Positions 756-22,795 of a stretch of 32,709 nt of DNA are shown in pieces. The DNA comes from Chitinophagaceae bacterium. GTDB taxonomy: Bacteria; Bacteroidota; Bacteroidia; Chitinophagales; Chitinophagaceae. The stretch is taken from the NCBI GenBank assembly GCA_947381435.1, contig CANCVE010000043.1, positions 1-32,709 of the forward strand. Direction: 5' to 3'. A program made the translations under genes and the position numbers. The notes under the pieces were generated by a model. That model was not told where the DNA came from and searched no databases. It was given only the letters and a program-made list of their open reading frames with translations. Positions within the stretch are counted from its first letter, which is position 1, and every line of letters starts with the position of its first letter.

Positions 756-881
756 TTAGGAGGGCTCCTATAAAAATTAGGAGGGCTCCTAAAACAATTA
801 GTTACGCACCAAGAACAATTAGGTGGCTACCTAAATGAATTAGTCGCAGGACTAAAACTGTTTGTACTCGTAAAACAAGGA
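756..881. repeat. Tandem array 1: six 21-bp units, each a small palindrome, arms covarying
   Basis: Units begin at 756, 777, 798, 819, 840 and 861, each exactly 21 bp. The first, second, fourth and fifth contain clean palindromes of the form TTAGxx...xxCTAA: TTAGGAG/CTCCTA(A) twice, TTAGGT/ACCTAA and TTAGTC/GACTAA, each with a 2-4 nt centre followed by an A-rich linker that is often AAACAA-like. The third and sixth are decayed. The arm sequence differs between units but pairing is kept, which suggests selection on, or copying of, a structure. The array fills most of the gap between the divergently transcribed gene at 134-610 and the tRNA-Gln promoter. Nothing else was recognised in 611-949. 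Confidence 0.8.
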
Positions 882-949
882 AGCCTACAGTTATTTCCTA
901 TTTCATTTTGCAGCATTATTAGACTGTTTATCAATTAGTAGAAAAAAAA

Positions 950-981
950 TTTGTTACAAAACATCGACTCCCCTATTTTTG
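950..981 (+). promoter_or_regulatory. Promoter of tRNA-Gln (perfect Bacteroidota consensus)
   Basis: TTTG at 950-953 and TATTTTTG at 974-981 match the -33 TTTG and -7 TAnnTTTG elements of the Bacteroidota primary sigma factor without mismatch. The 20-nt spacing is typical. Transcription should begin near 988, about 25 nt before the mature tRNA. This is the best promoter match in the window and supports assignment of the DNA to this phylum. Confidence 0.8.
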
Positions 982-1012
982 CACTCCGCTTTTGAAAAAA
1001 GGCAATAAGGAT

Positions 1013-1083
1013 TGGGTTATTGTGTAATGGTAGCACTACAGTTTTTGGTTCTGTCTGTCTAGGTTCGAATCCTGGTAACCCAA
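1013..1083 (+). tRNA. tRNA-Gln (anticodon TTG)
   Basis: A 71-nt cloverleaf. The acceptor stem TGGGTTA (1013-1019) pairs perfectly with TAACCCA (1076-1082), the discriminator base is A1083, and CCA is encoded in the DNA at 1084-1086. The T arm contains the GGTTCGAATCC core. The anticodon arm is ACAGT / TCTGT around the loop TTTTGGT, which puts TTG at positions 34-36 and so reads CAA and CAG glutamine codons. The terminal T-A acceptor pair is also typical of bacterial tRNA-Gln. The gene has its own promoter (950-981) and terminator (1093-1121), so it is a single-gene unit. Confidence 0.95.
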
Positions 1084-1092
1084 CCAACAAAG

Positions 1093-1121
1093 AGCCGTGA
1101 TTTAATTATCACGGCTTTTTT
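1093..1121 (+). terminator. Rho-independent terminator of tRNA-Gln
   Basis: AGCCGTGAT (1093-1101) pairs perfectly with ATCACGGCT (1108-1116) around a 6-nt loop and runs directly into a T tract (1116-1121). It lies 7 nt after the encoded CCA end. Confidence 0.92.
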
Positions 1122-1275
1122 GTTTCTATAATTTTTCGCTATCCAATTCTCTATAAGGCTGTTATTTAGCCAATATTATCACAAATGACAACGATATACT
1201 TAGTCTAAAAAAACTTCACTGCCTACGGGTAATATCATTTCCGATTAACAACTTAATAATCGCTAACATTGCAGA

Positions 1276-2139
1276 ATGGCAATTTATATAGAGGATGTCG
1301 CACTAAAAAAGAAGCTCACAGAAATTTATGATCAAAAGGAAGCTAACAAGATTACAGAGTTGGTTTTTGAGCATATAACAAAAATGACTAAAATAGAACT
1401 GGTTTCTGGACGCTATCGAACCATGACGGAACCAGAAAAGTTACAGCTAGTAGAAATTACGGAAAAGTTATTGGCACATTACCCTATTCAATACGTTATT
1501 GAAGAAGCTTGGTTTGGTGGACTGAAATTTTATGTAGATAAAAACGTGCTAATACCGAGGCCAGAAACGGAAGAACTTATAGATTTAATAACAAAGGATA
1601 AGGCATCATTGGTAGAGAATGCAGAATCGTTCAAAATAATTGATATTGGTACAGGAAGCGGTTGTATACCTGTATTGCTTAAAAAGAAGATGTTTAGAGC
1701 CAAAATAACGGCAGTAGATATTAGTGAGAAGGCATTAGAAGTTGCAAAGAGAAACACGGATGCCTATCGTGCATTTATTGAGTTTAAAAAGGTTGATATA
1801 CTCGATGAAAAAAAGTGGGATACACTTGATGTTTATGATGTAATAGTAAGTAATCCTCCTTATGTAATGGAAAAGGAAAAGGAGGCAATGCAAAAGAATG
1901 TGCTTGATTATGAACCTGGTATAGCACTCTTTGTTCCAGATAATGATCCTTTGATATTTTACAAAAAGATTGCCGCCTTCGGTTTAAACCATCTAGCCGC
2001 TAATGGACATATTTATGTAGAAATAAATGAAGCCCTAGGCAAAGAAACAAGCAATGTATTTAAAGCGGCAGGCTATATTACCGAAATTAAAAAAGACATG
2101 CAAGGAAAGGAACGGATGATTAAAGCAAGAAAAGGATAG
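1276..2139 (+). CDS. prmC: PrmC/HemK, peptide chain release factor glutamine methyltransferase
   Basis: This 287-residue protein methylates the glutamine of the GGQ motif in release factors RF1 and RF2, using S-adenosylmethionine, in the cytoplasm. An N-terminal helical domain (about 1-75) leads to PIQYV (70-74) and the family signature IPRPETEEL (93-101). The SAM-binding motif DIGTGSG follows at 123-129 and the catalytic NPPY at 193-196, which together are diagnostic for this enzyme rather than for other NPPY methyltransferases. The length is normal for the family. The ATG at 1276 follows an A-rich stretch without a Shine-Dalgarno sequence, as is common in this phylum. The gene is not beside prfA here; it stands alone between the tRNA-Gln unit and a convergent gene. 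No clear terminator was seen after the stop. Confidence 0.95.
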   Translation: MAIYIEDVALKKKLTEIYDQKEANKITELVFEHITKMTKIELVSGRYRTMTEPEKLQLVEITEKLLAHYPIQYVIEEAWFGGLKFYVDKNVLIPRPETEELIDLITKDKASLVENAESFKIIDIGTGSGCIPVLLKKKMFRAKITAVDISEKALEVAKRNTDAYRAFIEFKKVDILDEKKWDTLDVYDVIVSNPPYVMEKEKEAMQKNVLDYEPGIALFVPDNDPLIFYKKIAAFGLNHLAANGHIYVEINEALGKETSNVFKAAGYITEIKKDMQGKERMIKARKG

Positions 2140-2226
2140 GGGGTGGCTAGTTGTTTAAAGTATATCCCGGGTTATTAAGAAGATTGAAGATATTAATTAG
2201 GTACTAAGTTGAATTTATATTGACTC

Positions 2227-2958
2227 TTACTTAGAAATATTATTCTTATAATTTTCATTAAGCCTAAATAAAAGCAATTTTAACCCAATATAAATTTCAA
2301 ACTTAATATTTTCAGGGTCATCATTGCGGTAGGTTTGATTCAAATATTTTTCTAATTCTCTAGCATCTTCCTCAAATGATTTTAATAATTCTGGTTGAGC
2401 ACTTAAACTCTTTTTTATATCAGAAGCATGTGGTCCTTTAATGAATTTTCCTTCGTCAGTAATTATACACAAAGAATAATCCCTTGAAGAGTAAGGTGTA
2501 GAAGCTGTGGCTATAGCACCTCCAGCTGTTGCAGCAGCAACAACTGCACCGACCAATCCCAAACCGGGTAATAAGACTACAGGAGAGGAACTTCTATCCC
2601 TGTAAGAAAAGAAAGAACAACGACCTATATGAAGTTTCAAAAAGGTGCTTGTTACAGTTGTGTTATTGTGTTTTACATAAACATCTTTTCCGTCGCAAAA
2701 ACCCCAAACACGACCTGTGTGCTTTGAAGAATCTAGCAAAGTGTAGTCAACTCTAGTGTCGAGTGTATCATTCGTATCTTTACTTAGATTGGTAATAGTA
2801 AAGTCGTAAGTAATAGATGGTGAATTGGTGATAAACTCATTATAGTTTTTGTAGAACCCTTTTTTATACTCTTTACAGTTGTAGATTTTAATTGTATCAA
2901 TTTGGGCGAAAGACGAAAAGGAAATTGAGAAGATTAATAGGGAAAGAAGATATTTCAT
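2227..2958 (-). CDS. Secreted protein of unknown function
   Basis: A 243-residue protein whose N-terminus MKYLLSLLIFSISFSSFAQ is a typical signal peptide cleaved after FAQ, with no lipobox cysteine. A Gly/Ala/Val-rich hydrophobic segment around residues 128-155 could be a membrane segment or a glycine-zipper-like region. The C-terminal part (about 195-243) is charged and probably helical, ending in NNISK. The family is not recognised. It faces prmC (convergent) and lies downstream of uvrA on the same strand, separated from it by a strong hairpin, so it is probably transcribed on its own. Codon use looks like that of its neighbours. Confidence 0.65.
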   Translation of the reverse strand: MKYLLSLLIFSISFSSFAQIDTIKIYNCKEYKKGFYKNYNEFITNSPSITYDFTITNLSKDTNDTLDTRVDYTLLDSSKHTGRVWGFCDGKDVYVKHNNTTVTSTFLKLHIGRCSFFSYRDRSSSPVVLLPGLGLVGAVVAAATAGGAIATASTPYSSRDYSLCIITDEGKFIKGPHASDIKKSLSAQPELLKSFEEDARELEKYLNQTYRNDDPENIKFEIYIGLKLLLFRLNENYKNNISK

Positions 2959-3083
2959 TTTAATATTTTTTCAATGAGAATGACCTGATAAAAATAAGTG
3001 AATATTTCCGAACCTAATATTCTTAAAGAGAAGTCTATATACAAAAGACACCTTCCCAGCCTTCACAATATTTTTAAGTTCAT

Positions 3084-3118
3084 CTTGATAAATCCTTTTA
3101 GGCAAAGGATTTATCAAG
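3084..3118 (-). terminator. Perfect 15-bp hairpin downstream of uvrA
   Basis: Positions 3084-3098 pair with 3104-3118 without mismatch around the 5-nt loop TAGGC; the inner part is TAAATCCTTT / AAAGGATTTA. It begins 43 nt after the uvrA stop on the minus strand. There is no U tract on the uvrA side, so it may be an mRNA 3'-end stabiliser or an imperfect terminator rather than a classical intrinsic terminator. It lies inside a 60-codon open frame (2971-3153), which is one reason that frame is not called a gene. Confidence 0.6.
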
Positions 3119-3160
3119 CGAAGACTAATTGTTAACCCATACTCATAACTCATAACTACC

Positions 3161-6043
3161 TTAAAGGTACCTCCCTGTATAACTCTCTTTAACCTTCTTT
3201 ATCCCTTCGGGGATGCCTGCATAAACTAGGTTACCACCTGCATCACCTGCTTCCGGGCCTAGATCTATCAACCAATCAGCACATTTTATTACGTCTGTAT
3301 TATGTTCTATCACCAATAGCGAATGTCCTTGCTCTATCAGTTTATTAAAAGATGCCAATAGCTTTTTAATATCATGAAAGTGAAGCCCCGTAGTCGGTTC
3401 ATCGAATATAAAAAGAATATGCCCAGCTCCTTTCCCCTTACCTAGGAACGAAGCAAGCTTTACCCGTTGGGCTTCACCACCACTAAGTGTATTGGACGAT
3501 TGCCCTAGTTTTACATAACCCAAACCAACATCCTGCAAAGGCTGAATGGCTTTGGTTAGGTTCTTTTCATCCTCGAAAAAAGCAATAGATTCATCCACAC
3601 TCATCTCCAAAATATCATGAATACTCTTGCCCTTATACATTACCTCTATCACCTCTTCTTTAAATCTTTTACCTCCACAAACTTCGCAGGTAAGGTGCAC
3701 ATCAGCCAAGAATTGCATCTCTACTATTTGTTCGCCTTCACCCTTGCAGGCATCACATCGCCCACCATCCACGTTAAAAGAAAAGTGTTTAGGCAAGAAG
3801 CCACGTATTTTACTAAGCGGTTGTTTGGCATATAAATCCCTTATCTCATCATAAGCTTTTATATAAGTAATGGGGTTGCTTCGCGATGATTTGCCGATTG
3901 GGTTTTGGTCAATCATCTCTATTTGAGAAATATAATCTGCATCTCCTGTAATGGCTTTATGCAGACCTACTTTCTCCGAAAACTCTCCTTTCATCTTTTG
4001 CAATGCAGGGTATAGAATCTGTTTTACCAATGTTGTCTTTCCACTACCACTCACGCCGGTAACTACACAAAGAATGTTTAAGGGGAACGCTACTGTAATA
4101 TCTTTTAGGTTATTTTGCCTAGCACCTTCTACTGTTATACTCCTGTTCCACTTTCTAATAGCCTTCGGTACATCAATGGTCAATTCTCCTTTTAAGTATC
4201 TTCCCGTAAGGCTTTTGGGATTATCTATCAGTTGCTGATAATTGCCTGCTGCCACTACTTCACCGCCTAAATGCGATGCCAATGGACCCATATCAATTAC
4301 ATAATCAGCTTCGCGCATCATCATCTCGTCGTGTTCCACCACCACAACCGTATTGCCCAAAGCTTTTAATGACTTTAATACGCCAATCAGCTTCTCCGTA
4401 TCTCTACTATGCAAACCAATAGAGGGTTCATCTAGAATGTACAAGGAATTAGTCAGGTTACTTCCTAGGCTACGAGTAAGCTGTATTCGTTGACTCTCGC
4501 CTCCACTCAAGCTATTTGCCAAACGATTGAGGGTTAGATATCCTAAGCCAACATCAATTAAAGTCTGTAAGCGTTGATGAACCTCTATCAATATACGTTT
4601 AGCCACTTGTCTGTCATGTTCGCTTATATTCATTTTGTCGAACCAAACCTTTAAATCCTTTACTTGCATTTCGCATAGTTCACCAATATGTTTGGTGTCT
4701 ACTTTTACAAAAAGAGCCTCTTGTCTCAAACGATAGCCCTCGCACACAGGGCATTTTGTTTTGCCACGATACCTGCTAAGCATCACCCTGTATTGAACCT
4801 TATACAGATTGGCTTCTACTTCCTTAAAGAAATCATCTATGCCTTGAAGGTATTTCGCTCCCTTCCATAGCAACTGATATTGTTCCTTGGTCAGATCCAT
4901 AATAGGTTTATGTATCGGGAAGTTTGCTGCACCTGCACCACGCATAAAAGCCTCCTTCCATTCGCCCATCTTTTCTCCACGCCAGCAAGCAACAGCCCCT
5001 TCATACACACTCAATCTCTTATCAGGAATAACCAAATCCTCATCTATTCCCAACACCAAACTAAACCCTTCGCAGGTTGGACAAGCACCATAAGGATTGT
5101 TGAATGAAAATAGATTGGGCACAGGCTCTTCGAACTGTATTCCGTCCAATTCAAACTTATTACTGTAATGAAAGAACTCTTTCCCATCCAATTCTAAATA
5201 CATCTCACCTTCGCCCTCATAAAAAGCAATCCCAATTGAATCACTCAATCGGTGCAAATCATCTTCATCAAATTCTTTGGTAACTATACGGTCTACCAAT
5301 GTATAAACCCCTACACCCCCTGAATGGGGTTTTGGGGTCGCCTTAGGAGTAAACTTTTTCTTTAATTCTGCATCAGTCAGTTCTAATAATTCTTCTATTC
5401 GCACAGGTTCCAGTGCGCCACCTTTCACAGTATTTGGGGTCGCCATCCTACTAAAACCTTTTGCCATCAATATGTTGAGTTCTTCCCTTATCTCCCTGTT
5501 GGCATGTTGTTTAAACTTTACGATGATAAAAACGCGTCTTCCTAGTTCTAATGCCTTTATCGCTTCCACTACATCTTGCACATCATCTTTCTTCACTTCC
5601 CTTCCACTTATTGGCGAAATCGTCTTGCCTACACGTGCATACAACAAGCGCAAGTAATCATAAATCTCGGTCATACTACCTACTGTACTTCGTGGCGTAC
5701 GTGTAATAACTTTCTGCTCTATGGCTATTGCAGGACATAATCCTTTTATATAATCTACATCAGGTTTTACCATCCTCGCCATAAACTGACGGGCATAAGA
5801 GCTGAGGCTTTCTGCATATCTGCGTTGACCTTCAGCAAATAAAGTATCAATGGTTAAAGAAGACTTTCCACTACCACTCACTCCCGTAACAACAATAAAT
5901 TGATTACGGGGAAACTCTACTGTAACGTTTTTAAGATTGTGTGTTCTGGCACCTTTTACCAATATGTTATTGTTAGTCACCAAAGCTTGAGTATTGTTCT
6001 CTTGTTGGATACTTTTCTTCTTTTTTTCTACGCTCTTTTCCAT
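3161..6043 (-). CDS. uvrA: UvrA, excinuclease ABC subunit A
   Basis: A 960-residue ATPase that finds bulky DNA lesions and loads UvrB in nucleotide excision repair. It has the full tandem ABC layout. The first Walker A is GVSGSGKS at 54-61, and the first half carries CPTCEGF and CPVCEGYRL cysteine pairs, with the signature LSGGESQR and Walker B LYILDEPSIGLH in the middle. The second Walker A, VTGVSGSGKTTL, is followed by the C-terminal zinc finger (CDACKGEG...CEVCGGKRF), LSGGEAQR and FIFDEPTTGLH. The length is slightly above the usual 940 because of a charged N-terminal tail rich in lysine. It is divergent from the sigma-factor gene across a 316-bp gap. No LexA-type box was recognised. Bacteroidota often carry uvrA paralogues; this one keeps all motifs and should be active. 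Confidence 0.97.
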   Translation of the reverse strand: MEKSVEKKKKSIQQENNTQALVTNNNILVKGARTHNLKNVTVEFPRNQFIVVTGVSGSGKSSLTIDTLFAEGQRRYAESLSSYARQFMARMVKPDVDYIKGLCPAIAIEQKVITRTPRSTVGSMTEIYDYLRLLYARVGKTISPISGREVKKDDVQDVVEAIKALELGRRVFIIVKFKQHANREIREELNILMAKGFSRMATPNTVKGGALEPVRIEELLELTDAELKKKFTPKATPKPHSGGVGVYTLVDRIVTKEFDEDDLHRLSDSIGIAFYEGEGEMYLELDGKEFFHYSNKFELDGIQFEEPVPNLFSFNNPYGACPTCEGFSLVLGIDEDLVIPDKRLSVYEGAVACWRGEKMGEWKEAFMRGAGAANFPIHKPIMDLTKEQYQLLWKGAKYLQGIDDFFKEVEANLYKVQYRVMLSRYRGKTKCPVCEGYRLRQEALFVKVDTKHIGELCEMQVKDLKVWFDKMNISEHDRQVAKRILIEVHQRLQTLIDVGLGYLTLNRLANSLSGGESQRIQLTRSLGSNLTNSLYILDEPSIGLHSRDTEKLIGVLKSLKALGNTVVVVEHDEMMMREADYVIDMGPLASHLGGEVVAAGNYQQLIDNPKSLTGRYLKGELTIDVPKAIRKWNRSITVEGARQNNLKDITVAFPLNILCVVTGVSGSGKTTLVKQILYPALQKMKGEFSEKVGLHKAITGDADYISQIEMIDQNPIGKSSRSNPITYIKAYDEIRDLYAKQPLSKIRGFLPKHFSFNVDGGRCDACKGEGEQIVEMQFLADVHLTCEVCGGKRFKEEVIEVMYKGKSIHDILEMSVDESIAFFEDEKNLTKAIQPLQDVGLGYVKLGQSSNTLSGGEAQRVKLASFLGKGKGAGHILFIFDEPTTGLHFHDIKKLLASFNKLIEQGHSLLVIEHNTDVIKCADWLIDLGPEAGDAGGNLVYAGIPEGIKKVKESYTGRYL

Positions 6044-7255: not shown

Positions 7256-9070
7256 CTATCCTACAGCTTCACTAGCCATGCTCTTAGATGTTTTCTTACG
7301 TTCATCTTCATTCAATATTACCTTACGCATACGAATGTTTTTCGGAGTTACCTCTATACACTCATCAAATTGAATGTACTCCATGCACTCTTCTAGTGTC
7401 ATCAATATCTTCGGAGTAATACGTGTAGCATCATCACTTCCGCTTGCACGGTGGTTAGTCAATTTTTTAGCTTCTGTAGCATTCACCACCAAATCTCCTG
7501 GTTTAATATGCTCAGCAATTACTTGGCCAACGTATACTTCTTCATTTGGATCAACGAAGAAACGACCTCTGTCTTGTAATTTGTCTATCGAATATCCTGT
7601 TGTTCGTTCAGTACTCTTAGCTATCAATACACCATTACTACGTCCAGGTATTGGGCCTTTCCATGGTTTGTATTCCAAGAAACGGTGTGCCATTACAGCT
7701 TCACCAGCAGTACCTGTAAGCATTTGAGAACGCAAGCCAATCAACCCACGAGAAGGGATTTCAAATTCTAAGTGTTGCATTTCACCCTTACTTTCCATAA
7801 TAAGCATTTCCCCTTTACGTTGTGTAACAAGGTCAATTACTTTACCACTAAATTCTGAAGGCACATCAACAACCAAGTTTTCAAAAGGCTCATGTTTCTT
7901 GCCATCTATTTGTTTTACCAAAACCTGAGGGTTACCAACCGTAAGTTCATAACCTTCTCTACGCATTGTTTCAACCAATATACCCAAGTGCAATATACCA
8001 CGACCATAAACTAGGAAGCAATCCGCACTATCCGTATCTTCTACCTTCAAGGCAAGATTCTTTTCTGTTTCTTTCATCAAACGATCACGCAAGTGACGAG
8101 AAGTAACAAACTTACCATCCTTACCAAAGAAAGGTGAGTTATTGATGCTAAACATCATACTCATAGTTGGCTCATCAACGCTGATGATTGGCAATGCTTC
8201 AGGATTTTCAATATCGGCAATCGTATCTCCAATAGTAAAATCTTCAATACCTACCACTGCACATATATCTCCTGCTACAACTTCTGTAACTTTCTTCTTG
8301 CCTAATGATTCGAAGATGTACAACTCCTTAACGCGAGATTTTTGGATACGACCATCAGTACGCATCAAAGCAAAAGGTTGGTTTTCGCTTATTTTACCAC
8401 GAGCCACACGTCCTACTGCAATACGACCTAAGAAAGCAGAATAATCTAAAGAGGTAATTTGCATTTGTAATGTTCCATCTTCAATCTTTGGCGCAGGAAC
8501 ATATTGGAGGATACCATCCAATAAAGGAGTAATATCATCGCATTGTTCGTTTTTACTATTAAACCAACCATTTTTACCACTACCATAGAAAGTAGGGAAA
8601 TCTAGTTGTTCATCTGTTGCATCAAGGGTAAAGAACAATTCAAATACTGCATCATGCACTTCATCAGGGCGGCAGTTTGGTTTATCTACTTTATTGATAA
8701 CAACAATAGGTTTCAAATTTAATTGTAATGCTTTTTGCAATACAAAACGTGTTTGAGGCATTGGTCCTTCAAAGGCATCCACAAGCAGGATAACGCTATC
8801 CGCCATTTTCAATACACGCTCTACTTCACCACCAAAGTCACTGTGACCTGGGGTGTCAATAACATTAATCTTTACGCCTTTGTACATTACAGAAGCGTTT
8901 TTAGAGAAAATAGTGATACCGCGTTCTCTTTCAAGATCGTTACTATCCATAATCAATTCTCCTGTTTCCTGATTAGCACGGAAAACGTTGGTTTGATGTA
9001 AAATTTTGTCTACCAAAGTTGTTTTACCATGGTCAACGTGTGCAATAATTGCGATGTTTCTAATGTCCAT
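7256..9070 (-). CDS. typA: TypA/BipA, ribosome-associated translational GTPase
   Basis: This 604-residue GTPase acts on the ribosome, in 50S assembly and in adaptation to stress or cold. G1 AHVDHGKT is at 10-17, the switch I motif ERGITI near 50, G3 DTPGHSDF near 73 and G4 NKVDKP near 127. Domain II follows, then the EF-G-like domain with SRGLIGLRSQMLTGTAGEAVM, which is specific to BipA, and the C-terminal domain with ERTTGYSIDKLQDRGRFFV. The frame is open a further 19 codons upstream to 9127, but the start at 9070 (MDIRNIAIIAHVDHGKT) is chosen because the family begins this way and because a promoter lies just upstream. The length is normal. It has its own promoter and terminator. Confidence 0.96.
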   Translation of the reverse strand: MDIRNIAIIAHVDHGKTTLVDKILHQTNVFRANQETGELIMDSNDLERERGITIFSKNASVMYKGVKINVIDTPGHSDFGGEVERVLKMADSVILLVDAFEGPMPQTRFVLQKALQLNLKPIVVINKVDKPNCRPDEVHDAVFELFFTLDATDEQLDFPTFYGSGKNGWFNSKNEQCDDITPLLDGILQYVPAPKIEDGTLQMQITSLDYSAFLGRIAVGRVARGKISENQPFALMRTDGRIQKSRVKELYIFESLGKKKVTEVVAGDICAVVGIEDFTIGDTIADIENPEALPIISVDEPTMSMMFSINNSPFFGKDGKFVTSRHLRDRLMKETEKNLALKVEDTDSADCFLVYGRGILHLGILVETMRREGYELTVGNPQVLVKQIDGKKHEPFENLVVDVPSEFSGKVIDLVTQRKGEMLIMESKGEMQHLEFEIPSRGLIGLRSQMLTGTAGEAVMAHRFLEYKPWKGPIPGRSNGVLIAKSTERTTGYSIDKLQDRGRFFVDPNEEVYVGQVIAEHIKPGDLVVNATEAKKLTNHRASGSDDATRITPKILMTLEECMEYIQFDECIEVTPKNIRMRKVILNEDERKKTSKSMASEAVG

Positions 9071-9667: not shown

Positions 9668-10669
9668 ATGAATAGATTCTCTAAAATTGTTATTGCTATA
9701 GTTCTGTTTTTTGCGTTTTTATACTTCCTCGGCCCACATCCTTCTACTCCTATATATAATAAGGTACTCCCTTCTATTCCTTTATGTTCAGACAGTTTAG
9801 AAAAATATATTAATAGTGTAGAAAGTAAACACAAATTAAAGTACGATAATCAGGCTAGGGTAGTTTGGATTGATGATAGTACAAAACAAAAAACAGACTA
9901 TGCCATTGTCTATTTACATGGGTTTAGTTCTAGTCAGGGAGAAGGTGCACCAACACATCGCACCATTGCCAAAGAGTTTGGGTGTAATCTATATCTTTCT
10001 CGTTTGGCTGAACACGGAATTGATACCTCAGAACAATTAATGAATCTAACCGCCGATAATTATTGGGAGAGTGCAAAAGAGGCACTAGCCATTGGCAAAC
10101 AAATAGGCAAAAAAGTGATATTGATGGGTACCTCTTCGGGTGGTGCATTGGCACTACAGTTGGCAGCAGCCTTTCCTGATGATGTAGCTGGCACCATATT
10201 ATATTCTCCTAACATTGCCATCAACGATAAAAGTGCTTGGTTATTAAACCAACCATGGGGTTTGCAGATTGCCAGAATGGTAATGGGGGATAAGTACTTA
10301 AAAGGCACACACAATGATTCGCTGAATAACCGCTATTGGAACACGACATACAGAATTGAAGCAGCCGTTGCCTTACAAGAAATAGTTGCTACTACGATGA
10401 ATGAAACAACTTTCAAATCAGTTCACCAGCCAACACTTGCTCTTTATTATTATAATGATGAAGAACAACAGGATAAAGTAGTAAAAGTATCGGCTATAAA
10501 ATCAATGCTCAATAGTATTGCTACACCAGATAGTTTGAAAAGGGGGATTGCCATGCCCAACGTAGGCAATCATGTAATGTGTTCGTCTATAAGGTCTAAT
10601 GATGTGGCGGGCGTTATTACTGAAACAGAGAAGTTTTTAGTAGAGATTATGCATTTAAATAAGTTGTAA
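9668..10669 (+). CDS. Membrane-anchored alpha/beta hydrolase
   Basis: A 333-residue serine hydrolase, probably an esterase or lipase-like enzyme. Residues 5-22 form a hydrophobic N-terminal anchor or uncleaved signal peptide, so the catalytic domain is probably periplasmic. The oxyanion-hole motif HG is at 84-85 (VYLHGFSSSQGEG). The nucleophile elbow is GTSSG at 154-158 with Ser156 as nucleophile. An acidic site is likely in YYNDEEQQD (about 260-268), and His302 in GNHVMCS completes the triad. The substrate cannot be told. The gene stands alone, without adjacent genes on its strand for more than 1.3 kb, and no convincing promoter or terminator was found. The call to the fold is firm, the specificity unknown. 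Confidence 0.85.
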   Translation: MNRFSKIVIAIVLFFAFLYFLGPHPSTPIYNKVLPSIPLCSDSLEKYINSVESKHKLKYDNQARVVWIDDSTKQKTDYAIVYLHGFSSSQGEGAPTHRTIAKEFGCNLYLSRLAEHGIDTSEQLMNLTADNYWESAKEALAIGKQIGKKVILMGTSSGGALALQLAAAFPDDVAGTILYSPNIAINDKSAWLLNQPWGLQIARMVMGDKYLKGTHNDSLNNRYWNTTYRIEAAVALQEIVATTMNETTFKSVHQPTLALYYYNDEEQQDKVVKVSAIKSMLNSIATPDSLKRGIAMPNVGNHVMCSSIRSNDVAGVITETEKFLVEIMHLNKL

Positions 10670-10762
10670 AATTATGACTTTGATTGCAGAGTAGGTTTTT
10701 AATAAGAAATAGTAATCTGTGTTAAACTTTGTACTAAAACTTCTCGTAACAAAGCTACAAAA

Positions 10763-11077
10763 GTCTAAAACTTAGCAAATATTGCCTTAAGCTAAGCATG
10801 TAAAGTCTTCTGCAAGGCTTTAATAGTCTTAAGTTGTGCCTAAAAAGTCTTCTACTTCACAGATAATGCCCTCAGCAAGGCTTGATAAGCCCTCAGCTAA
10901 ACCTGAAAAGTCAAGCAAGGGGCTTGTTTTGTCTTGCTAAAAGCTATTTTAGCTATACAGTAAACTAATTTACCCTAGCTGAAAGCTTTTCCAGCCAAGC
11001 CGAACACTTGGTTGCCCAAGCTGAGCACTTTTCTAGCCAAGCTGAAAACTAATTTAACTATGTTTAAGGCTTCGCAA
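10763..11077. repeat. Tandem array 2: fifteen degenerate 21-bp units
   Basis: Units start every 21 bp from 10763 to 11057 without a single insertion or deletion. Thirteen of fifteen begin with GTC, GCC or CCC (the others GCT and ACT), commonly followed by TT, AA or CT, and several share the sequence AGCTGA, AGTCTT or AAGGCTT. Local dyads occur, for example GGCTT-GAT-AAGCC near 10881-10893, CAAGC/GCTTG near 10912-10926 and CCAAG/CTTGG near 10995-11011. The spacing is far more conserved than the sequence. Weak 21-bp phasing may extend to either side (from about 10721 and to about 11130). The array lies between the hydrolase stop and the sus-like promoter region, with no open frame likely to be a gene. 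Confidence 0.72.
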
Positions 11078-11986: not shown

Positions 11987-14962
11987 ATGAATTTTAAGCG
12001 ATTAATTGCCTTGCTGTTTATGATGAACTTCGTGTTTGGCATAGCAGCATTTGCACAAGAAAGGGTTGTTACCGGAAAAGTAACCGACTCCAAAGATGGA
12101 ACACCTTTAGCCAACATCACCGTACAAGTTAAAGGGAGTAAAAATGCCACACAAACAGCGGCAGATGGTACTTTTAAAGTAAAGGTTTCTGGCGATGACG
12201 CCACTCTAATTGTAACTTCTATAGGTTATTCCAAACAAGAAGTTTCGGCAAGTGGAACACCTATTTCAGTGAGCTTAGTACAATCAAACTTTACATTAAA
12301 TGAGATCGTAGTTGTAGGGTATGGAACCGTAAAAAAGAAAGATTTGACTGGTGCGGTAACAACTGTATCAGCTAAAGACTTTCAGAAAGGCGCAATTTCA
12401 ACTCCAGAGCAAATGATTTCAGGTAAAGTTGCGGGAGTTTCTATTATTTCAAACAGCGGACAGCCTGGGGCTGGTAGTACAATTCGCATCCGTGGTGGCG
12501 CTTCTTTAAGAGCTAGTAACGATCCTTTGATAGTGATTGATGGTGTTCCATTAGATAACGATGCAATTAAAGGTGCAGGTAATCCATTAAGCTTTATAAA
12601 TGCTAATGACATAGAATCTTTCACTGTATTAAAGGATGCTTCTGCAGCTGCAATTTATGGTACTAGGGCTGCAAATGGGGTTATAATTATCACAACAAAG
12701 AAAGGTAAATCTGGCGCATTGAAAGTAAGCTTTAGTTCTGTAAATTCACTTTCAAGCTTAAAGAAAGAGTTGCCTGTATTAAATGGTAATCAAATTCGTT
12801 CTATTGTAACTGCAAATGGGACTGCAGCCCAAAAAGCCATGTTAGGAAATGCAAACACTGATTGGCAAAAGGAAATCTTTCAAAATGCTTTCTCAACAGA
12901 TAACAACCTTACAATTAGTGGGGGATTTAAGAAATTTCCTTACAGAATTTCATTAGGTTTTCAAAACCAAGATGGAATACTAAAAACTGACAACCTTCAA
13001 AAAACAAGTGTTGGAATTGCAGTAAACCCTACATTTTTTGACAATCATTTGAAAGTAGATTTAAACTTAAAAGGTAGTACTCAAAGTACTCGATTCGCAA
13101 ATACAGGTGCTATAGGTGCTGCTGCAGGTTTCGATCCAACTCAAAATGTTTATTCGAATAGTAAAAGATTTGGAGGGTATTATGAATGGTTAGATCCAAG
13201 TACACCAACAGGTTTAAATTTGAATGCGGGTAGAAATCCTGTTGGGCTATTAAATCAACAACTAGATAAGAGTACTCCACAAAGAAGTATTGGAAATTTG
13301 CAACTTGATTATAAGTTTCATTTTTTACCAGACTTACATGCCAACTTAAATGCAGGATATGATATATCTAAGGGTGAGGGTAATAAATATATCTCAGATA
13401 GTGCGGCATCTAACTACATTGCAGGAGGTAAGGGTGGTCAAAATAATTACTATAAATCTACAAAGCAGAATACCCTTTTTGAATTCTATCTTAATTATGT
13501 AAAAGAGTTTAAAAAGTATAAGACTCGTATTGATGCGACTGCAGGATATTCTTACAATAATTATTTGACCAAAAATTATAATTATGCAGAGTACTACGCA
13601 AAAGGAACTGTTTCAAAGGCTGCTTCTAAGTTCGCTTATGATGAACCTGAACATAGCTTAATATCATATTTCGGAAGAGTTAACTTGGGCTACGATGATA
13701 AGTATTTATTAACTGCAACAATTCGTCGTGATGGATCTTCAAGGTTTTCTCCAAATAATAGGTGGGGAATGTTCCCATCCGCTGCATTTGCTTGGAAAGT
13801 AATAAATGAACCATTCATTAATAACAGTAAAATTATTTCTGATTTAAAACTTCGAGTTGGATATGGGATAACTGGTCAACAAGATGGTGTAGGTAATTAT
13901 GATTATTTATCATACTACAATTATAGTGATGTAAACGCGTCTTATCAATTTGGGAATGTTTTTTATCAAATGTATAGACCAGGGGGCTTCTATGCCAATC
14001 GTAAATGGGAGCAAACTGCAACTACAAACATTGCTGTAGACTTTGGCTTATTGAAAAATAGAATTACAGGTAGTGTTGATTTATACATGAAGAAAACTAG
14101 TGATTTATTAAATGAAGTTGCTCAGCCAGCTGGCACCAATTTCTCTGCATATACTATTGCAAATGTTGGTAACATGGAAAATAAAGGGATAGAAGTAACT
14201 TTAAATACGATTCCAATTAAAGAGAAAGATTTAACATGGGACGTTGCATTTAATGTTACTTATAACAAAAATGAAATCACAAACTTGACAGTAATCCCTA
14301 ACGATCCCAATTATCCAGGTTTTTATAGTACAAATATTTCGGGTGTTCAGGGGTTTGCTTACTTAAATGCAGTTGGCAGTAGCAAGAATACATTTAACCT
14401 ATACAAACAAGTGTTTGATTATAAGACAGGTGCACCTATTGAAGGTATGTTTCAAGACAGAAACAGAGATGGCATTATTAATGAAAGTGACAAGTATAAA
14501 GGTAAGAGTGCTGACCCTAAAGTTTTCTTAGGCTTCTCTACTAATCTGAGTTACAAGAATTGGAATGCTGGATGTATTCTCAGAGCTAGTTTTGACAATT
14601 ATGTCTACAATAATGTATACAGTAACAATGGTAGATTAAATCAAATAATTGGTGGGGCTACAATTAGTAATGCATCGATAAATTATCTTACAACACATTT
14701 TGTTGGTTCTACAGATAAGCAATTACTAAGTGATTATTATATTGAAAATGCTTCTTTTTTAAGAATGGACAATCTTAATATTGGTTATAACTTTGGAAAA
14801 GTGTTGAAAAGTATAAATTCTCTAAGAGCTAATTTTAGTGTCCAGAATGTGTTTACAATAACAAAATATTCTGGACTAGACCCTGAAATTAGTAATGGAG
14901 TAGACAACAATAACTATCCAAGACCAGTAGTTTATACTCTTGGAATAAACTTAGATCTGTAA
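11987..14962 (+). CDS. susC: SusC/RagA-type TonB-linked outer-membrane transporter
   Basis: A 991-residue outer-membrane beta-barrel that imports oligosaccharides with energy from TonB-ExbBD. The signal peptide is cleaved after AAFAQ (about residue 24). A carboxypeptidase-regulatory-like beta domain (GKVTDSKDGTPLANITVQVKG, about 28-105) precedes the SusC signature NEIVVVGYGTVKKKDLTGAV, which includes the TonB-box region. The plug follows (about 120-240) with QMISGKVAGVSI, IRIRGGASL, PLIVIDGVPL and the SusC-type LKDASAAAIYGTRAANGVIIITTKKG, then the barrel, ending in an aromatic-poor YTLGINLDL strand. There is no N-terminal STN domain, so it is not of the kind that signals to a FecR/ECF pair. 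It is 8 bp from susD and first in a four-gene operon. Confidence 0.96.
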   Translation: MNFKRLIALLFMMNFVFGIAAFAQERVVTGKVTDSKDGTPLANITVQVKGSKNATQTAADGTFKVKVSGDDATLIVTSIGYSKQEVSASGTPISVSLVQSNFTLNEIVVVGYGTVKKKDLTGAVTTVSAKDFQKGAISTPEQMISGKVAGVSIISNSGQPGAGSTIRIRGGASLRASNDPLIVIDGVPLDNDAIKGAGNPLSFINANDIESFTVLKDASAAAIYGTRAANGVIIITTKKGKSGALKVSFSSVNSLSSLKKELPVLNGNQIRSIVTANGTAAQKAMLGNANTDWQKEIFQNAFSTDNNLTISGGFKKFPYRISLGFQNQDGILKTDNLQKTSVGIAVNPTFFDNHLKVDLNLKGSTQSTRFANTGAIGAAAGFDPTQNVYSNSKRFGGYYEWLDPSTPTGLNLNAGRNPVGLLNQQLDKSTPQRSIGNLQLDYKFHFLPDLHANLNAGYDISKGEGNKYISDSAASNYIAGGKGGQNNYYKSTKQNTLFEFYLNYVKEFKKYKTRIDATAGYSYNNYLTKNYNYAEYYAKGTVSKAASKFAYDEPEHSLISYFGRVNLGYDDKYLLTATIRRDGSSRFSPNNRWGMFPSAAFAWKVINEPFINNSKIISDLKLRVGYGITGQQDGVGNYDYLSYYNYSDVNASYQFGNVFYQMYRPGGFYANRKWEQTATTNIAVDFGLLKNRITGSVDLYMKKTSDLLNEVAQPAGTNFSAYTIANVGNMENKGIEVTLNTIPIKEKDLTWDVAFNVTYNKNEITNLTVIPNDPNYPGFYSTNISGVQGFAYLNAVGSSKNTFNLYKQVFDYKTGAPIEGMFQDRNRDGIINESDKYKGKSADPKVFLGFSTNLSYKNWNAGCILRASFDNYVYNNVYSNNGRLNQIIGGATISNASINYLTTHFVGSTDKQLLSDYYIENASFLRMDNLNIGYNFGKVLKSINSLRANFSVQNVFTITKYSGLDPEISNGVDNNNYPRPVVYTLGINLDL

Positions 14963-16599: not shown

Positions 16600-17445
16600 A
16601 TGAAAAAATATTTGAATAAATTATTAATAACAGTTGGTTTGGGGATGTTCATCCTTACATCTTGTAAAAAGCAGGTTGCTGAGGTTTATTATCAGGGAGG
16701 TATAAATCCAATTTTAACGGCAAACTTACAGGATACCATACCTCTTATTGCCAATGACTCAAGTAAAGTAGCAATAACTTTTAATTACACTAATCCTAAT
16801 TACATATTTAGTGATGGAATAAGTTCTCAGAATGTTGTTTACACGTTACAAGTTGACACTTTTGGGGCAAACTTTACTAACCCTGCAATGCAAACAATTA
16901 CTGGTGATTTGAGTTTAAGTAAATCGATAACTGGTAATTTTTTAAATCAACTATTAGCAAGTAAACTTGGCTTGTCGCTTGGTCAAAATCATAAAATCCA
17001 AGTTCGGTTAATAACTTCAATTGGTACTAATAATCAAGCTCAGTTAATTTCGAATGTCTTAACATTTAATGTAACTCCATTTGCTCCTCCGCCACTAATT
17101 ACTCCGCCCTCTACTGGTACGCTTTTTATAGTTGGTAGTGCAGTTGCAGGAGGTTGGAGTAATCCAATTGACGTTTCCAACGTAACTTCCCAGCAATTTA
17201 CACAAATTAGTAATACAGAATTTAAAATAACTATTTCCCTAATTGGTGCTGGAGAGTACAAATTAATTGGTAAAAATGGTGGTTGGGGTGAACAATGGAG
17301 CGTTGCTATCGCTGATGATCCTGCTGCAATTTTTGGAGGTGCTTTTGTGTCCAATGGAAATAATACACTCGCTCCTCCTAAAAGTGGGATTTATGATATA
17401 GTTGTAAACTTTCAAACTGGTAAATTCACAGTTACCCTACATTAA
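16600..17445 (+). CDS. susE: SusE-like surface lipoprotein with one starch-binding-type module
   Basis: A 281-residue lipoprotein: the signal peptide ends with the lipobox LTSC at Cys22, followed by KK. Residues about 35-160 form a SusE-type N-terminal Ig-like domain (VVYTLQVDTFGANF...IQVRLITSI). A proline-rich hinge (FAPPPLITPPSTG) leads to one C-terminal module at about 173-281, with GTLFIVGSAVAGGWSNP, WGEQWSVAI and a final GIYDIVVNFQTGKFTVTL strand pair. SusE and SusF of Bacteroides use comparable modules to hold starch at the surface; the aromatic residues seen here fit, but the glycan bound in this organism is inferred. It lies 24 bp after susD and 25 bp before the SusF-like gene. Confidence 0.85.
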   Translation: MKKYLNKLLITVGLGMFILTSCKKQVAEVYYQGGINPILTANLQDTIPLIANDSSKVAITFNYTNPNYIFSDGISSQNVVYTLQVDTFGANFTNPAMQTITGDLSLSKSITGNFLNQLLASKLGLSLGQNHKIQVRLITSIGTNNQAQLISNVLTFNVTPFAPPPLITPPSTGTLFIVGSAVAGGWSNPIDVSNVTSQQFTQISNTEFKITISLIGAGEYKLIGKNGGWGEQWSVAIADDPAAIFGGAFVSNGNNTLAPPKSGIYDIVVNFQTGKFTVTLH

Positions 17446-19656: not shown

Positions 19657-19728
19657 ATGAATTATGAGTTATAAATTATAAACAAAAAGAACAATCCACA
19701 AATTGATAACTTATAATTTATAATTCAT
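19657..19728. repeat. AT-rich inverted repeat between convergent genes
   Basis: ATGAATTAT at 19657 begins a 25-bp arm that pairs imperfectly (20 of 23) with 19705-19728. The right arm forms the last codons of the aminotransferase gene: its C-terminus MNYKL and stop are encoded by the repeat, and the left arm in the opposite orientation would encode the near-identical MNYEL and stop. A related ATGAGTTATGAGT stretch begins near 3135-3153. The loop holds no T tract; a bidirectional terminator role is possible. Confidence 0.6.
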
Positions 19729-20910
19729 ATCTACTTCCTCAATGCTTTCCACAATTAAACTACACATTTTGCGTAGTTCATCTTTTGTAATGATAAGTGG
19801 CGGTGCAATTCGCATACTTTTATCATTAAATAGAAACCAATCGGATATTAATCCCTTTTCAATACACTTTTTAATAACTGAATGATTGGTATTGAAACTA
19901 TCAAATTCAATTGCCATCCATAAACCACAACTTCTTTTTGCAACAATTGCTTTATGATGAATTAAATTATTCATTAACTCCTCTTTTTCCTTTATTTCCT
20001 GAATATATTCTCCTTCTAGCAATACTGCCAGTCCTGCTTTGCCCGCTGCACAGCTTACAGGATGCCCACCAAAAGTTGTTATATGCCCAAGTACAGGATT
20101 GTTGGTAAAACAATCCATCAGTTTTTTATCAGCTATAAACGCCCCAATAGGCATTCCTCCTCCCAAAGCCTTGCCCAACAGTAATATTTCGGGTATTACA
20201 CCAAATTGTTCAAAGGCCCAAAGGCTTCCCGTTCTTCCAAAACCCGCTTGTATTTCATCTAATATCAGTAAAACACAATGTTCATCACATTTCTTTCTGA
20301 TAGCCTTTATCCACTCGGCATTGGGTTTAATAATTCCAGCTTCTGCCTGCACTGTTTCCATAATTACACAGGCAGTTGTACTATCAATTGCTTCAATTAC
20401 CTCATTGCTGTTATAATCGAAATGAAAAACATCAGGCAATAATGGTCTATAAGCATTTCGGAAGTATTCGTCGCCCATAACACTCAAAGCGCCATGTGTA
20501 CTGCCATGATATGATTTATTAAAACTAATAATCTTACTTCTATTGGTTATTCTTTTAGCCAATTTTAAAGCACCCTCAGTCGCTTCGGTGCCACTATTTG
20601 TAAAATAAACGCAGTTTAATGACGGTGGAAGTAATTCTGTTAGCAGTTTGGCATAAGATACTTGTGGTTGCTGAATATATTCTCCATAAACTATCAAGTG
20701 CATATACTTTGCCGCCTGTTCTTGAACTGCTTTTACAATCTTAGGATTGCTATGGCCAATGTTTGCCACACTAAAGCCGCTAATCATATCAATATACTCC
20801 TTCCCGTCGGTATCATAAATGTAAATACCCTCGGCTCTTTCCATTTCTAAGCCAATAGGAGCGGGGGATGTTTGTGCAATATGCTGTAAAAATTGATTAC
20901 GAAGCGACAA
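19711..20910 (-). CDS. Class III PLP-dependent aminotransferase (acetylornithine/ornithine/4-aminobutyrate type)
   Basis: A 399-residue fold-type I aminotransferase. The PLP phosphate-binding SGTEA is at 106-110, the ring-stacking SYHGSTHG at 133-140, the pyridine-nitrogen aspartate D218 in LILDEIQAGFGRTG, and the Schiff-base lysine K247 in LLLGKALGGGMP. All catalytic residues are present. Class III members of this size act on omega-amino groups (acetylornithine, ornithine, 4-aminobutyrate); motifs alone do not separate these. It lies 133 bp downstream of the arginase-fold gene on the same strand, which would fit ornithine chemistry if that partner were an active arginase, but the partner looks altered. 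The C-terminus runs into an AT-rich repeat. No argCBJ genes are nearby, so a biosynthetic ArgD role has no context support. Confidence 0.88.
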   Translation of the reverse strand: MSLRNQFLQHIAQTSPAPIGLEMERAEGIYIYDTDGKEYIDMISGFSVANIGHSNPKIVKAVQEQAAKYMHLIVYGEYIQQPQVSYAKLLTELLPPSLNCVYFTNSGTEATEGALKLAKRITNRSKIISFNKSYHGSTHGALSVMGDEYFRNAYRPLLPDVFHFDYNSNEVIEAIDSTTACVIMETVQAEAGIIKPNAEWIKAIRKKCDEHCVLLILDEIQAGFGRTGSLWAFEQFGVIPEILLLGKALGGGMPIGAFIADKKLMDCFTNNPVLGHITTFGGHPVSCAAGKAGLAVLLEGEYIQEIKEKEELMNNLIHHKAIVAKRSCGLWMAIEFDSFNTNHSVIKKCIEKGLISDWFLFNDKSMRIAPPLIITKDELRKMCSLIVESIEEVDMNYKL

Positions 20911-20920
20911 GTCTTTAGAT

Positions 20921-21029
20921 ATTAGTTATAAGTGATTAGTTGTTAGTGGTTAGTGGTTAGTGGGAGTTCGGTTGGGTAAATGACTTACTATTTTCATTAA
21001 CCACTAATAACTAACCACTTATAACTAAC
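20921..21029. repeat. Inverted repeat of TTAGTGG/TTAGTTAT-type heptamers
   Basis: Positions 20921-20952 pair with 20998-21029 at 29 of 32 positions. Both arms are made of short near-repeats such as TTAGTGG and TTAGTTATAAGTG. It fills most of the 133-bp space between the arginase-fold gene and the aminotransferase gene on the minus strand. If both are on one transcript it would form a large hairpin between them, affecting processing or partial termination; no T tract follows. Confidence 0.7.
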
Positions 21030-21043
21030 CACTAATCATTGTG

Positions 21044-22174
21044 TTAAGCTCTTTCCATTGCTCTCAACCAGCGTTCGGGTATCTCGTTATTACAGGCTAT
21101 TAGGTAATCTTGCTTGCTACAAGCCACAAAATGACCATCATTTACCTGCATCCACCATCTTCCGGTCTTTTTACTTTGTAAAAAAACAGTTTCTATCTCG
21201 GCAAAGGCCATAGTAAATTCAAAAAAGTCGTCCCTATTTTCCAAAAGAGCCTCTTGTTTTCCTTTATGAATGCCATCCATAATATACCAAAGCATGTGGC
21301 TTATTTGTTTGGCAGTTAAAGCATCAGTATCAAGGGAGGTATTGTAACCATAAATACCAATGCTGCTAACATTGTTACTCATACCGGCATATTGCATTAA
21401 AGTACAAGCTTCTTCTCCCGTAAAACCATTGGGACTCAACTTATTTGCAGGGGCATGAGCGTGCTGAATGGCAGCAATATCAAAGCTTAACAGGTGGCTA
21501 TTACGCATTGGTGGCTCCATCTCCTCAATATTTTCTTTAACCTTCCCCACCCTAAAACAATCAAAACGCAAACTATCTATCACTTCCAGCATCTGAGGGT
21601 GAACAAAGTAGCTTTGAAAACCAATGTGGTTATAATGCTTGATAAAGTTGGGAACACCTGTTAAAAATTCCATCAAAAAGTTATCCGATGGCAGCACACT
21701 ATCCATATTTAGGTCTATACGGGCATCAACACAAGTGGCTTCAATTATTTTTTCCAGAGAAATATACGCGCCATATTGCGCCATCGTAACATCGTGGCTG
21801 CCTCCCAAAATAACTACGCGCTTACCAAGTTCTAATAGTTCGCTTACCGTAGTTTTTAATGCCGCATACGTGTCTTGTATGCTCGCCCCCATCTTTACGT
21901 TGCCAATATCTGCTACAATTACGTTTTTGTGCCAATGAAAAAGGTTATAAAATTCTGAACGCACGGCATTAGGGCCATCCGTATTGTTAATACCTCCTTC
22001 GCCACGCATTTCACCGCAACCTACAAGCACTAAATCGGCATTTGATATGTCTGGAAACTCATCTTCATACGCATTAATGTGTCGGCCAAGCTGAGTATCT
22101 TTATAACCTATATCATTACTCAGTTCATAACGGTTAATAGGCTCTAAAAAATCGATAATACTGTCTAAACTCAT
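21044..22174 (-). CDS. Arginase/formimidoylglutamase-fold protein with altered metal site
   Basis: A 376-residue member of the ureohydrolase (arginase, agmatinase, formimidoylglutamase) superfamily. The three metal-binding landmarks are in the right order but changed. GGSHD at 124-128 stands where GGDHS is usual. DARID at 150-154 stands where DAHxD is usual, so a metal-binding histidine is replaced by arginine. SFDIAAIQ at 230-237 stands where SxDxDxxDP is usual, so the second aspartate is alanine. Related Bacteroidota proteins are often annotated formimidoylglutamase. With these changes a normal binuclear manganese centre looks unlikely, so catalysis is doubtful. The fold otherwise looks intact, with VGCGEMRGEGG and NTDGPNAVR near the start. 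It is upstream of the aminotransferase gene on the same strand. Confidence 0.82.
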   Translation of the reverse strand: MSLDSIIDFLEPINRYELSNDIGYKDTQLGRHINAYEDEFPDISNADLVLVGCGEMRGEGGINNTDGPNAVRSEFYNLFHWHKNVIVADIGNVKMGASIQDTYAALKTTVSELLELGKRVVILGGSHDVTMAQYGAYISLEKIIEATCVDARIDLNMDSVLPSDNFLMEFLTGVPNFIKHYNHIGFQSYFVHPQMLEVIDSLRFDCFRVGKVKENIEEMEPPMRNSHLLSFDIAAIQHAHAPANKLSPNGFTGEEACTLMQYAGMSNNVSSIGIYGYNTSLDTDALTAKQISHMLWYIMDGIHKGKQEALLENRDDFFEFTMAFAEIETVFLQSKKTGRWWMQVNDGHFVACSKQDYLIACNNEIPERWLRAMERA

Positions 22175-22191
22175 ATAAAGTTGTTAGGAAA

Positions 22192-22199
22192 CAAACATA
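22192..22199 (-). promoter_or_regulatory. Possible -7 element of the arginase-fold gene
   Basis: TATGTTTG on the minus strand matches TAnnTTTG exactly, 17 bp upstream of the ATG at 22174. No -33 TTTG is found at 17-22 nt spacing, and the leader would be only about 12 nt, so the call is weak. Confidence 0.3.
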
Positions 22200-22417
22200 C
22201 TTTAATACTTTATTAAATTTAGTAATTGTGTGTAAATAGTAATTTAACGACTGGTTATACCACAATTGGGATTCTACCCAATTTTCATGTTTAAGGATTT
22301 CGAGATTATTAAAATTTTACGCTGATAAAATCCCATTCCCTTTTTATTCAATTTAAATTGTACGATAATTGTTTTCTTGTGATTGCTTTTGGCAATGTGA
22401 AAGGTAAAAGTGTTCAA

Positions 22418-22795
22418 AACATACTTAATTCTTGCTTAAATATCAAGACTTTTTGCTTGAATGTCTTTAAGTCTTGCTAAAACATCTAGACTTCTGAGTC
22501 GAATGTCTTTAAGTCTTCGTTAAACATCAAGACATTTGTCTCAAAAGTCTTGATGTCTGAGCCAAACATCGAGAGATTCGACTTAAAAGTCATTAAGTCT
22601 GAGTCAAACATCGAGACGTTTGTCTTAAAAGTCTTGAAGTCTGAGCCAAACATCGAGAGATTCGACTTAAAAGTCATTAAGTCTGAGTCAAACATCGAGA
22701 CATTCGTCTCAAAAGTCTTGAAGTTTGATGAAGACTTAAAGACTTTTAAACAAGATGTAACCATGTTTTAATGAGAAGTAGAGATGTTTTGCGCT
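22418..22795. repeat. Tandem array 3: eighteen 21-bp units with 42-bp and 84-bp higher order
   Basis: Units start every 21 bp from 22418 (22418, 22439 and so on to 22775) with no phase slip. Starts alternate between AACATC and AA(A/T)GTC, giving a 42-bp pair. The 84 bp at 22544-22627 are repeated at 22628-22711 with 80 of 84 positions identical, so at least one recent duplication took place. The 12-bp palindrome GACTTAAAAGTC recurs in both copies. Because 21 is a multiple of 3, both strands stay open and read as heptad-like peptides (for example TFKSNLSMFGS), but no start signal supports a gene. The array fills the gap between the arginase-fold gene and the permease gene. Nothing else was recognised in 22200-22417 or 22796-22971. 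Confidence 0.82.

Follow-up and report, generated by a model that had tools for sequence, protein, structure and literature searches.

Intergenic tandem arrays of constant 21-bp step and variable sequence in a genus of Chitinophagaceae

Introduction

Why should three intergenic gaps within 22 kb of one bacterial contig hold tandem arrays that differ in sequence but keep the same 21-bp step? The question is posed by a 32,709-nucleotide stretch of a Chitinophagaceae genome (contig CANCVE010000043.1, positions 1 to 32,709), here called the window, which is contig C43 of the genome that we refer to as G000 (4.88 Mb, 231 contigs). The original prediction, drawn from the letters of this window, took the arrays to belong to a possible undescribed genomic system of constant length and variable sequence. 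In part this is borne out: on the scale of genomes, arrays that keep a 21-bp step but differ in sequence form a class present in all six genomes sampled from the genus and, under the same scan, at none of 76 loci from relatives. Simple heptamer repeats apart, repeat length seems to be held nearly always at 21 bp (about two helical turns) or a multiple of it, while sequence is free. Our leading reading, which we put forward tentatively, is that the arrays form a genus-specific, hairpin-prone class of intergenic minisatellites whose step of about two helical turns is probably set by length-defined local duplication.

Results

The arrays at issue are the following (positions are those of the window):

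756..855, no strand assigned: array 1, five 21-bp steps starting at 756, 777, 798, 819 and 840
10750..11069 (ends approximate), no strand assigned: array 2, degenerate 21-bp steps with lags 21, 42, 63 and 84
22427..22775 (ends approximate), no strand assigned: array 3, 21-bp steps with a higher-order pattern of 42 bp and 84 bp

Is the period real? Each array was compared with 500 dinucleotide shuffles, whose score at any lag was set against the observed lag-21 score. Not one shuffle was as strong at any lag as array 1 (tested over 756-881; lag 21, z 7.8) or array 2 (10763-11077; z 10.6), and none reached the lag-21 value of array 3 (22418-22795; z 10.0, with z 18.3 at lag 42), which confirms the predicted period for all three. 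In array 1, the step consists of a 16-nt core and a 5-nt linker; all five cores start with TTAG and differ in the middle, and four of the five end in CTAA or CTAT, the third core being unpaired.

How widespread is this step? Sampling 20 stretches of 20 kb at the starts of contigs C1-C20 of G000 (400 kb, of which 61.6 kb is intergenic), we found 29 intergenic clusters with a fundamental lag of 21, 22, 41, 42, 43, 44 or 66 and nine further ones at lag 7 or 14; in our cluster counts, some clusters are halves of one array. Extrapolated from this sample, the whole genome holds roughly 300 arrays. Arrays of the 21-bp class were present in six of six genus genomes sampled (G000, G107, G047, G102, G106 and G103), although heptamer arrays dominate in G103, where 17 of 31 intergenic clusters have lag 7. 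Taking the six genomes and the window together, there are 105 intergenic clusters whose fundamental lag falls in the range 15-69; 99 of them are no more than 2 bp away from 21, 42 or 63, the remaining six having lags of 37, 38 (two), 66 (two) and 67, and no intergenic cluster has a lag of 15-20, 23-36 or 45-62. Outside this range, the genus tally comprises 36 intergenic clusters of lag 7 and another six whose lag is 8, 9 or 14. The expectation that 21 bp would not be one of many equally frequent periods therefore holds for lags 15-69; the frequent heptamer arrays count against it.

The intergenic lag spectrum peaks at 21 and 42 in G000, G107, G047 and G102. In three of these (G000, G107 and G102) lags 63, 84, 105 and 126 are raised as well, and lags 7 and 14 are high in all four, except that G102 is without the 7; the top lags are 21, 42, 7 and 14 in G106 and 14, 21 and 7 in G103. 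The 21-bp arrays themselves rarely have a lag of 7. The intergenic DNA of the genus contains 117 near-exact two-copy repeats of 21 bp and 59 of 42 bp, and those at 14 bp (107), 28 bp (21) and 35 bp (21) fit the heptamer arrays. Arrays of G102 stand at contig ends in loci L190, L194, L197, L199 and L208; they may thus break the assembly, so that arrays are perhaps undercounted in this genome. A 42-bp array can also be seen in a public record, JAIXOJ010000197.1, at about 16896-17147 (L011:1451-1702).

As a control, 76 TypA neighbourhoods of more distant relatives (Chitinophagaceae, Chitinophagales, Sphingobacteriales, plain Bacteroidetes and some named genera; 131.7 kb intergenic) were scanned in the same way; since these loci all surround one gene, they are not a whole-genome control. 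The scan of the 76 loci returned no clusters at 21, 42 or 63, and the lags that it did return were 7, 8, 9, 28 and 37 only. Two other genomes of the family, G018 and G004, were sampled in five stretches (9.5 kb intergenic), which likewise held no array clusters. A weak trace of the period is present in the control lag spectrum, where lag 21 (z 6.7) ranks behind lags 8, 9, 7, 6, 14, 12 and 15, and near-exact two-copy repeats in the control count five at 21 bp and one at 42 bp.

Do the arrays favour a particular kind of gap? Array 1 lies in a divergent gap between an open reading frame (ORF) at 134-610 (-) and a tRNA-Gln gene (1013-1086, +), array 2 in a tandem gap between ORFs at 9668-10669 (+) and 11987-14962 (+), and array 3 in a tandem gap upstream of the ORF at 21044-22174 (-), the array-3 gene. 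That none stands in a convergent gap is thus correct for these three, but it does not extend to the class: among gaps of at least 150 bp between ORFs of at least 70 aa in four genomes, the 60 with arrays comprised 33 tandem, 19 divergent and 8 convergent gaps, as compared to 230, 103 and 54 of all 387. Arrays are without preference for tandem, divergent or convergent gaps.

Is a common sequence hidden beneath the common step? An all-against-all comparison of 92 sampled arrays placed 16 of them in seven clusters of two or three, the others being single within the sample. The short words that arrays 2 and 3 had been said to share are indeed common to both, but the two arrays are not linked at E 1e-4 in this comparison. 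In a whole-genome search, array 3 proved to belong to a family of four places in G000 (the others on contigs C104, C115 and C121); compared with its own reverse complement, it is 66% identical over 339 bp. The dispersed families of the all-against-all comparison have 72-92% identity and occur in both orientations. No tag is common to the 120 arrays searched, the strongest words being GGCA/TGCC-like and present in at most 53 of them, and neither did these 120 have in common a GTAG/CGTC-like tag of the repetitive extragenic palindrome (REP) type (N was taken as self-complementary in the tag and palindrome counts, which affects one or two arrays).

Coding heptads, as a source of a 21-bp period, were rejected: among 102 arrays with a period of 21 or 42 and three or more units, 75 contain an open frame, compared to 75.8 expected; in 14 of 96 cases the intergenic period is not divisible by 3; and the open frames that run over arrays are mostly ORFs of about 110-170 aa composed of little but array. 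Because open frames in arrays are no commoner than chance, we judge the frame within array 3 to be spurious:

22486..22764, minus strand: 92-aa open frame within array 3

Within genes, the same period is seen in G103, where 21-bp (7-residue) repeats lie inside two overlapping ORFs (L260:15403-17680) that together look like one putative E2 acyltransferase gene with a masked stretch, judging from their translation; such in-frame repeats fit a process acting wherever it is tolerated. The idea of a curvature element had to be given up, as A/T is phased neither at 10.5 bp nor at 21 bp (relative power 1.09 and 0.87, respectively, over 82 arrays) and A-tracts make up 10.6% of array DNA compared to 18.8% of other intergenic DNA, a deficit due in part to arrays being richer in G+C. 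In the samples of G000, G107, G047 and G106, G+C amounts to 38% in array DNA and 30.5% in other intergenic DNA, with G000 coding DNA at 37%.

Dyad symmetry was tested against permuted columns, in 92 clusters at first and in 118 later, some of them under spurious ORFs. Array 1 is palindromic, as had been predicted (dyad p 0.003; single-stranded DNA fold z -4.8, with 0 of 200 shuffles as good). Two stretches of array 3 gave dyad p values of 0.003 and 0.030 and fold z values of -3.4 (0/200) and -1.35 (19/200), and two stretches of array 2 were without a significant dyad (p 0.58 and 0.22; fold z -1.4 and -1.6, with 17 and 12 of 200 shuffles as good). Over the 118 clusters, the dyad had p<=0.01 in 36 and p<=0.05 in 49, or about 40% of arrays; by genome, the latter threshold was reached by 8 of 10 clusters in G047, 14 of 26 in G107, 18 of 36 in G000, 6 of 16 in G106, 2 of 10 in G103 and 1 of 20 in G102. 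Perfect palindromes of at least 12 bp were present in 26 of 120 arrays, compared to 5.6% of column-permuted arrays and 9.6% of other intergenic windows, and 8-bp palindromes were not enriched in these 120. In strong-dyad arrays, complementarity is lower at the two central pairs (0.33-0.49) than in the arms, a contrast that is inflated because the arms were used for selection.

What becomes of an array between species? Upstream of the array-3 gene, for which 11 genomes were compared, 21-bp arrays stand in G000, G047, G108 and G104, and a 66/67-bp array in G102 (L207:343-648; loci overlap on contig C128). The array sequence is common to G047 and G108 and differs in the other genomes, and the next gene upstream appears not to be the same in all of them. 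In another orthologous gap, where G099 is without an array, G000 and G100 each carry a 42-bp array, the two being unrelated in sequence. At a third site, beside a tRNA recognised by eye, a 20-bp palindrome occurs five times in G047 (at 41-42 bp spacing), once in G108 and twice in G104, with arms that differ between the three genomes; by eye, G107, G100 and G099 have no copy. Copy number at this site therefore differs between species. Among the seven distinct units of the site, five of ten pairs show change on both sides, a number equalled by 1 of 500 shuffles; none of 500 shuffles matched the share of cells that pair (94.3%) or the covariation score (0.329). As the units are related, these shuffle counts are not probabilities. 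Sliding the partners abolished the pairing signal. Two arrays adjoin tRNA genes (window 756-1086, and L180:4947-5310 in G047), and an RNA-family search of the window had the tRNA as its sole match at the gathering threshold.

Which protein could build or use such arrays? A search for a gene whose presence follows that of the arrays had been suggested, and we found no such gene among three families, namely Cas1, reverse transcriptase and Y1/RAYT-like transposases. The Cas1 profile had no match in array-bearing G000, G047, G102 and G106, the reverse transcriptase profile RVT_1 none in array-bearing G000, G047, G102 and G107, and each had matches in 5 of 13 genus genomes. With array genomes lacking profile matches, Cas1/CRISPR and reverse transcriptase are unlikely as general builders. 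RAYT-like transposases alone do not explain the arrays either, being present but not genus-specific: of 39 family genomes from other genera, 30 have a Y1 transposase match (31 of 40 including G000), one of them G004, of which 40 kb are without an array, and a family so widespread in other genera does not explain the genus limit of the arrays. In G000, six RAYT-like genes that were read (L288-L293, on contigs C81, C137, C142, C40, C28 and C86) form by eye three near-identical pairs, whereas RAYTs are described as single-copy (PMC3116915).

One further array of the window came from the lag scan and lies outside the 21-bp class:

about 20920-21038, no strand assigned: 7/14-bp heptamer array

Its presence means that the statement of no other period in the window was wrong. 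This array lies just downstream of the array-3 gene, and heptamer or 14-bp arrays also stand downstream of the orthologues in G099, G047, G108, G104 and G106 and upstream in G103; the survey covered chosen lags only, and the 66/67-bp array of G102 falls outside those lags. Elsewhere in the window, seven perfect copies of TGGTTA (27777-27818) encode a Gly-Tyr run near the end of a 792-aa ORF. The protein at 7256-9070 (-), TypA-like by eye, is 98% identical to that of L010 and 93-94% to those of L011-L013, from Chitinophagaceae metagenome-assembled genomes. L010, from the nearest public relative, was tried as a very close relative for a recent-gain comparison, and its synteny with the window stops beside the TypA-like gene; window positions 5-150, outside the TypA region, are 84% identical to L010:106-251.

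Discussion

What kind of process leaves length constant and sequence free? This combination points first to one that sets length. We propose that a length-defined local duplication makes and turns over the arrays, whether by slippage or template switching where units are prone to hairpins or through an enzyme measuring about 21 nt. Such duplication would act on whatever sequence is present and, by passing through fold-back intermediates, might produce the tendency to perfect palindromes. Arrays would persist chiefly where they disrupt no gene, their unit sequences later drifting and spreading, and selection may then keep some of them. The observations that speak for local duplication are the quantised period, the presence of arrays in every sampled genome of the genus, their free sequence, the lack of a gap-type preference and the frequent dyads, together with the copy-number difference between species at one site and the occurrence of unit sequences at distant places without their flanks. 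A narrower version, which we consider rather doubtful, invokes a genus-specific activity that, gauging a length of about 21 nt, would build or maintain often palindromic tandem arrays from any local sequence.

Several results weigh against local duplication. In the three protein families searched, no enzyme or step setting 21 bp was found. The array common to G047 and G108 has 83.3% identity without a gap in 227 columns, compared to 69.4% and 60.3% for its intergenic flanks (stretches chosen after the alignment had been seen), and an array kept better than its flanks suggests constraint rather than free turnover; the gene end (89.5%) and the promoter-proximal part (83.7%) are kept as well as the array. 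Over 31 rows of orthologous-gap comparisons, some of them repeated and heptamer arrays included, a called array on both sides was seen in just two distinct gaps (G047/G108 and G000/G100) and in none of the other gaps listed. Column conservation was uneven in 19 of 41 arrays (period 21, at least six units, at least 15 mismatches), as expected of a binding site, yet shared descent of the units gives the same. Moreover, the arrays of G102 are almost without dyads, so palindromes are not required, and compensatory change within arrays is weak (excess z 2.0, mean rank 0.59, in the 62 of 92 arrays with variable pairs). A z of 9.1 for such compensation, which would have served as a general proof of structure, was biased in that the dyad had been picked on the tested pairs; it is not used, the corrected value being the 2.0 given above.

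Could the arrays instead be phased binding sites? A genus-specific dimeric DNA-binding or bridging protein might occupy one site per two turns on one face of the DNA, the 21-bp spacing being retained by selection because it serves to organise the chromosome or to regulate genes locally. The gapless G047/G108 array, better conserved than its flanks, and the dyads keep this explanation alive, and the fixed two-turn spacing and the uneven columns would suit it as well. Although it is the main rival, we consider it rather unlikely. The arrays have no common motif, one orthologous gap holds unrelated arrays, 69 of 118 clusters lack a significant dyad (p>0.05), and a period of 31-32 bp (three turns), which would equally suit one face, is never seen, a point tempered by hairpin centres lying 32 apart inside arrays 16 times. 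Alternatively, palindromic elements of REP/REPIN type, or of the type of minisatellite miniature inverted-repeat transposable elements (MITEs), may have been moved by RAYT-like tyrosine transposases and then expanded in place. This would account for the dispersed families in both orientations, for the 21-, 42- or 43-bp arrays in three of six stretches (about 3 kb each) round the RAYT-like genes of G000, for the one flank that the array 3 relatives on C115 and C121 have in common, and for the L107/L109 pair, alike beyond the array. That pair, however, is the exception among six families compared: in the other five, the best similar pieces (six per pair) stop within about 30 bp of the array, and no common leader, tail or inverted ends were found. 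Together with the missing tag and with Y1 transposases in most genomes of other genera, including that of the array-free G004 sample, this renders a mobile origin improbable.

Even less probable, in our estimate, are arrays of RNA hairpins in untranslated regions, serving mRNA stability or attenuation or acting as decoys. Hairpin-like units with a less paired centre would agree with such a role, as would 5-bp stems at twice the number in shuffles (263 versus 132, a figure in which repeats multiply a chance stem) and the unevenness of G-T versus A-C mismatches in some arrays (chi2 57.8, 33 df; cells not independent, hence suggestive only). Yet the indifference to gap type speaks against such a role, and in one unit of the tRNA site the central pair (columns 9/12) changed on both sides although it could not form in a hairpin. 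Finally, these might be ordinary minisatellites without a length rule, the 21-bp peak being due to chance or detection bias. Bacteria commonly carry minisatellites, the genus and its relatives alike have heptamer arrays, and in the relatives lag 21 still ranks eighth, with its five two-copy repeats; but the absence of clusters at 21, 42 or 63 from the 76 relatives' loci, the almost empty space between multiples in the genus and the excess of two-copy repeats there (117 and 59 at 21 and 42 bp, versus 5 and 1) leave this explanation very little room.

Why does it matter? Tandem repeats as a rule have a sequence in common or differ in length; here, a fixed length goes with a free sequence, at an extrapolated 300 or so places in one genome and in one genus as far as sampled. 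The setting of length and the setting of sequence in repeats hence become separable and testable: either bacteria have a two-helical-turn duplication step, or the spacing is imposed by a protein of the chromosome. The arrays also offer sites for following the evolution of palindromes arm by arm between species. If true, the narrower version, with its activity gauging about 21 nt, would give a bacterial chromosome a satellite system that is programmed in length but free in sequence.

How do the arrays compare to known systems? The intergenic heptamer (7-bp) tandem repeats of cyanobacteria have counterparts in this genus, but heptamer arrays differ from the 21-bp arrays in their 7-bp step and in occurring also in relatives outside the genus. 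Plasmid iterons are direct repeats at about two-turn spacing, but of one sequence at an origin, whereas many arrays of differing sequence lie within the 9% of G000 sampled. With bacterial minisatellites and variable-number tandem repeats, the arrays have in common head-to-tail units, copy-number differences between species and higher-order repeats; unlike these in general, their length is quantised to multiples of 21 in about 100 clusters of mostly unrelated sequence. A literature search, with most subscription papers outside its scope, returned nothing on 21-bp arrays in this family. REP/REPIN/RAYT systems (PMC3733652, PMC3116915) resemble ours in their short intergenic palindromes, sometimes evenly spaced, and in the RAYT-like genes present here, but the arrays lack a GTAG/CGTC-like tag, no unit sequence is common to the whole genome and their step is fixed near 21 bp. 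Nearest among printed cases, within the literature searched, are BrickBuilt (23 nt) and 464/PgRS (41 nt), minisatellite MITEs of Porphyromonas gingivalis (PMC4596501). BrickBuilt, at 19 places in the ATCC 33277 genome, is there a single sequence family with a leader, a tail and small inverted ends, whereas most arrays sampled here have a sequence of their own, without shared ends in five of six families. What unites them with the present arrays is that both are tandem units near two and four helical turns, scattered over genomes of Bacteroidota.

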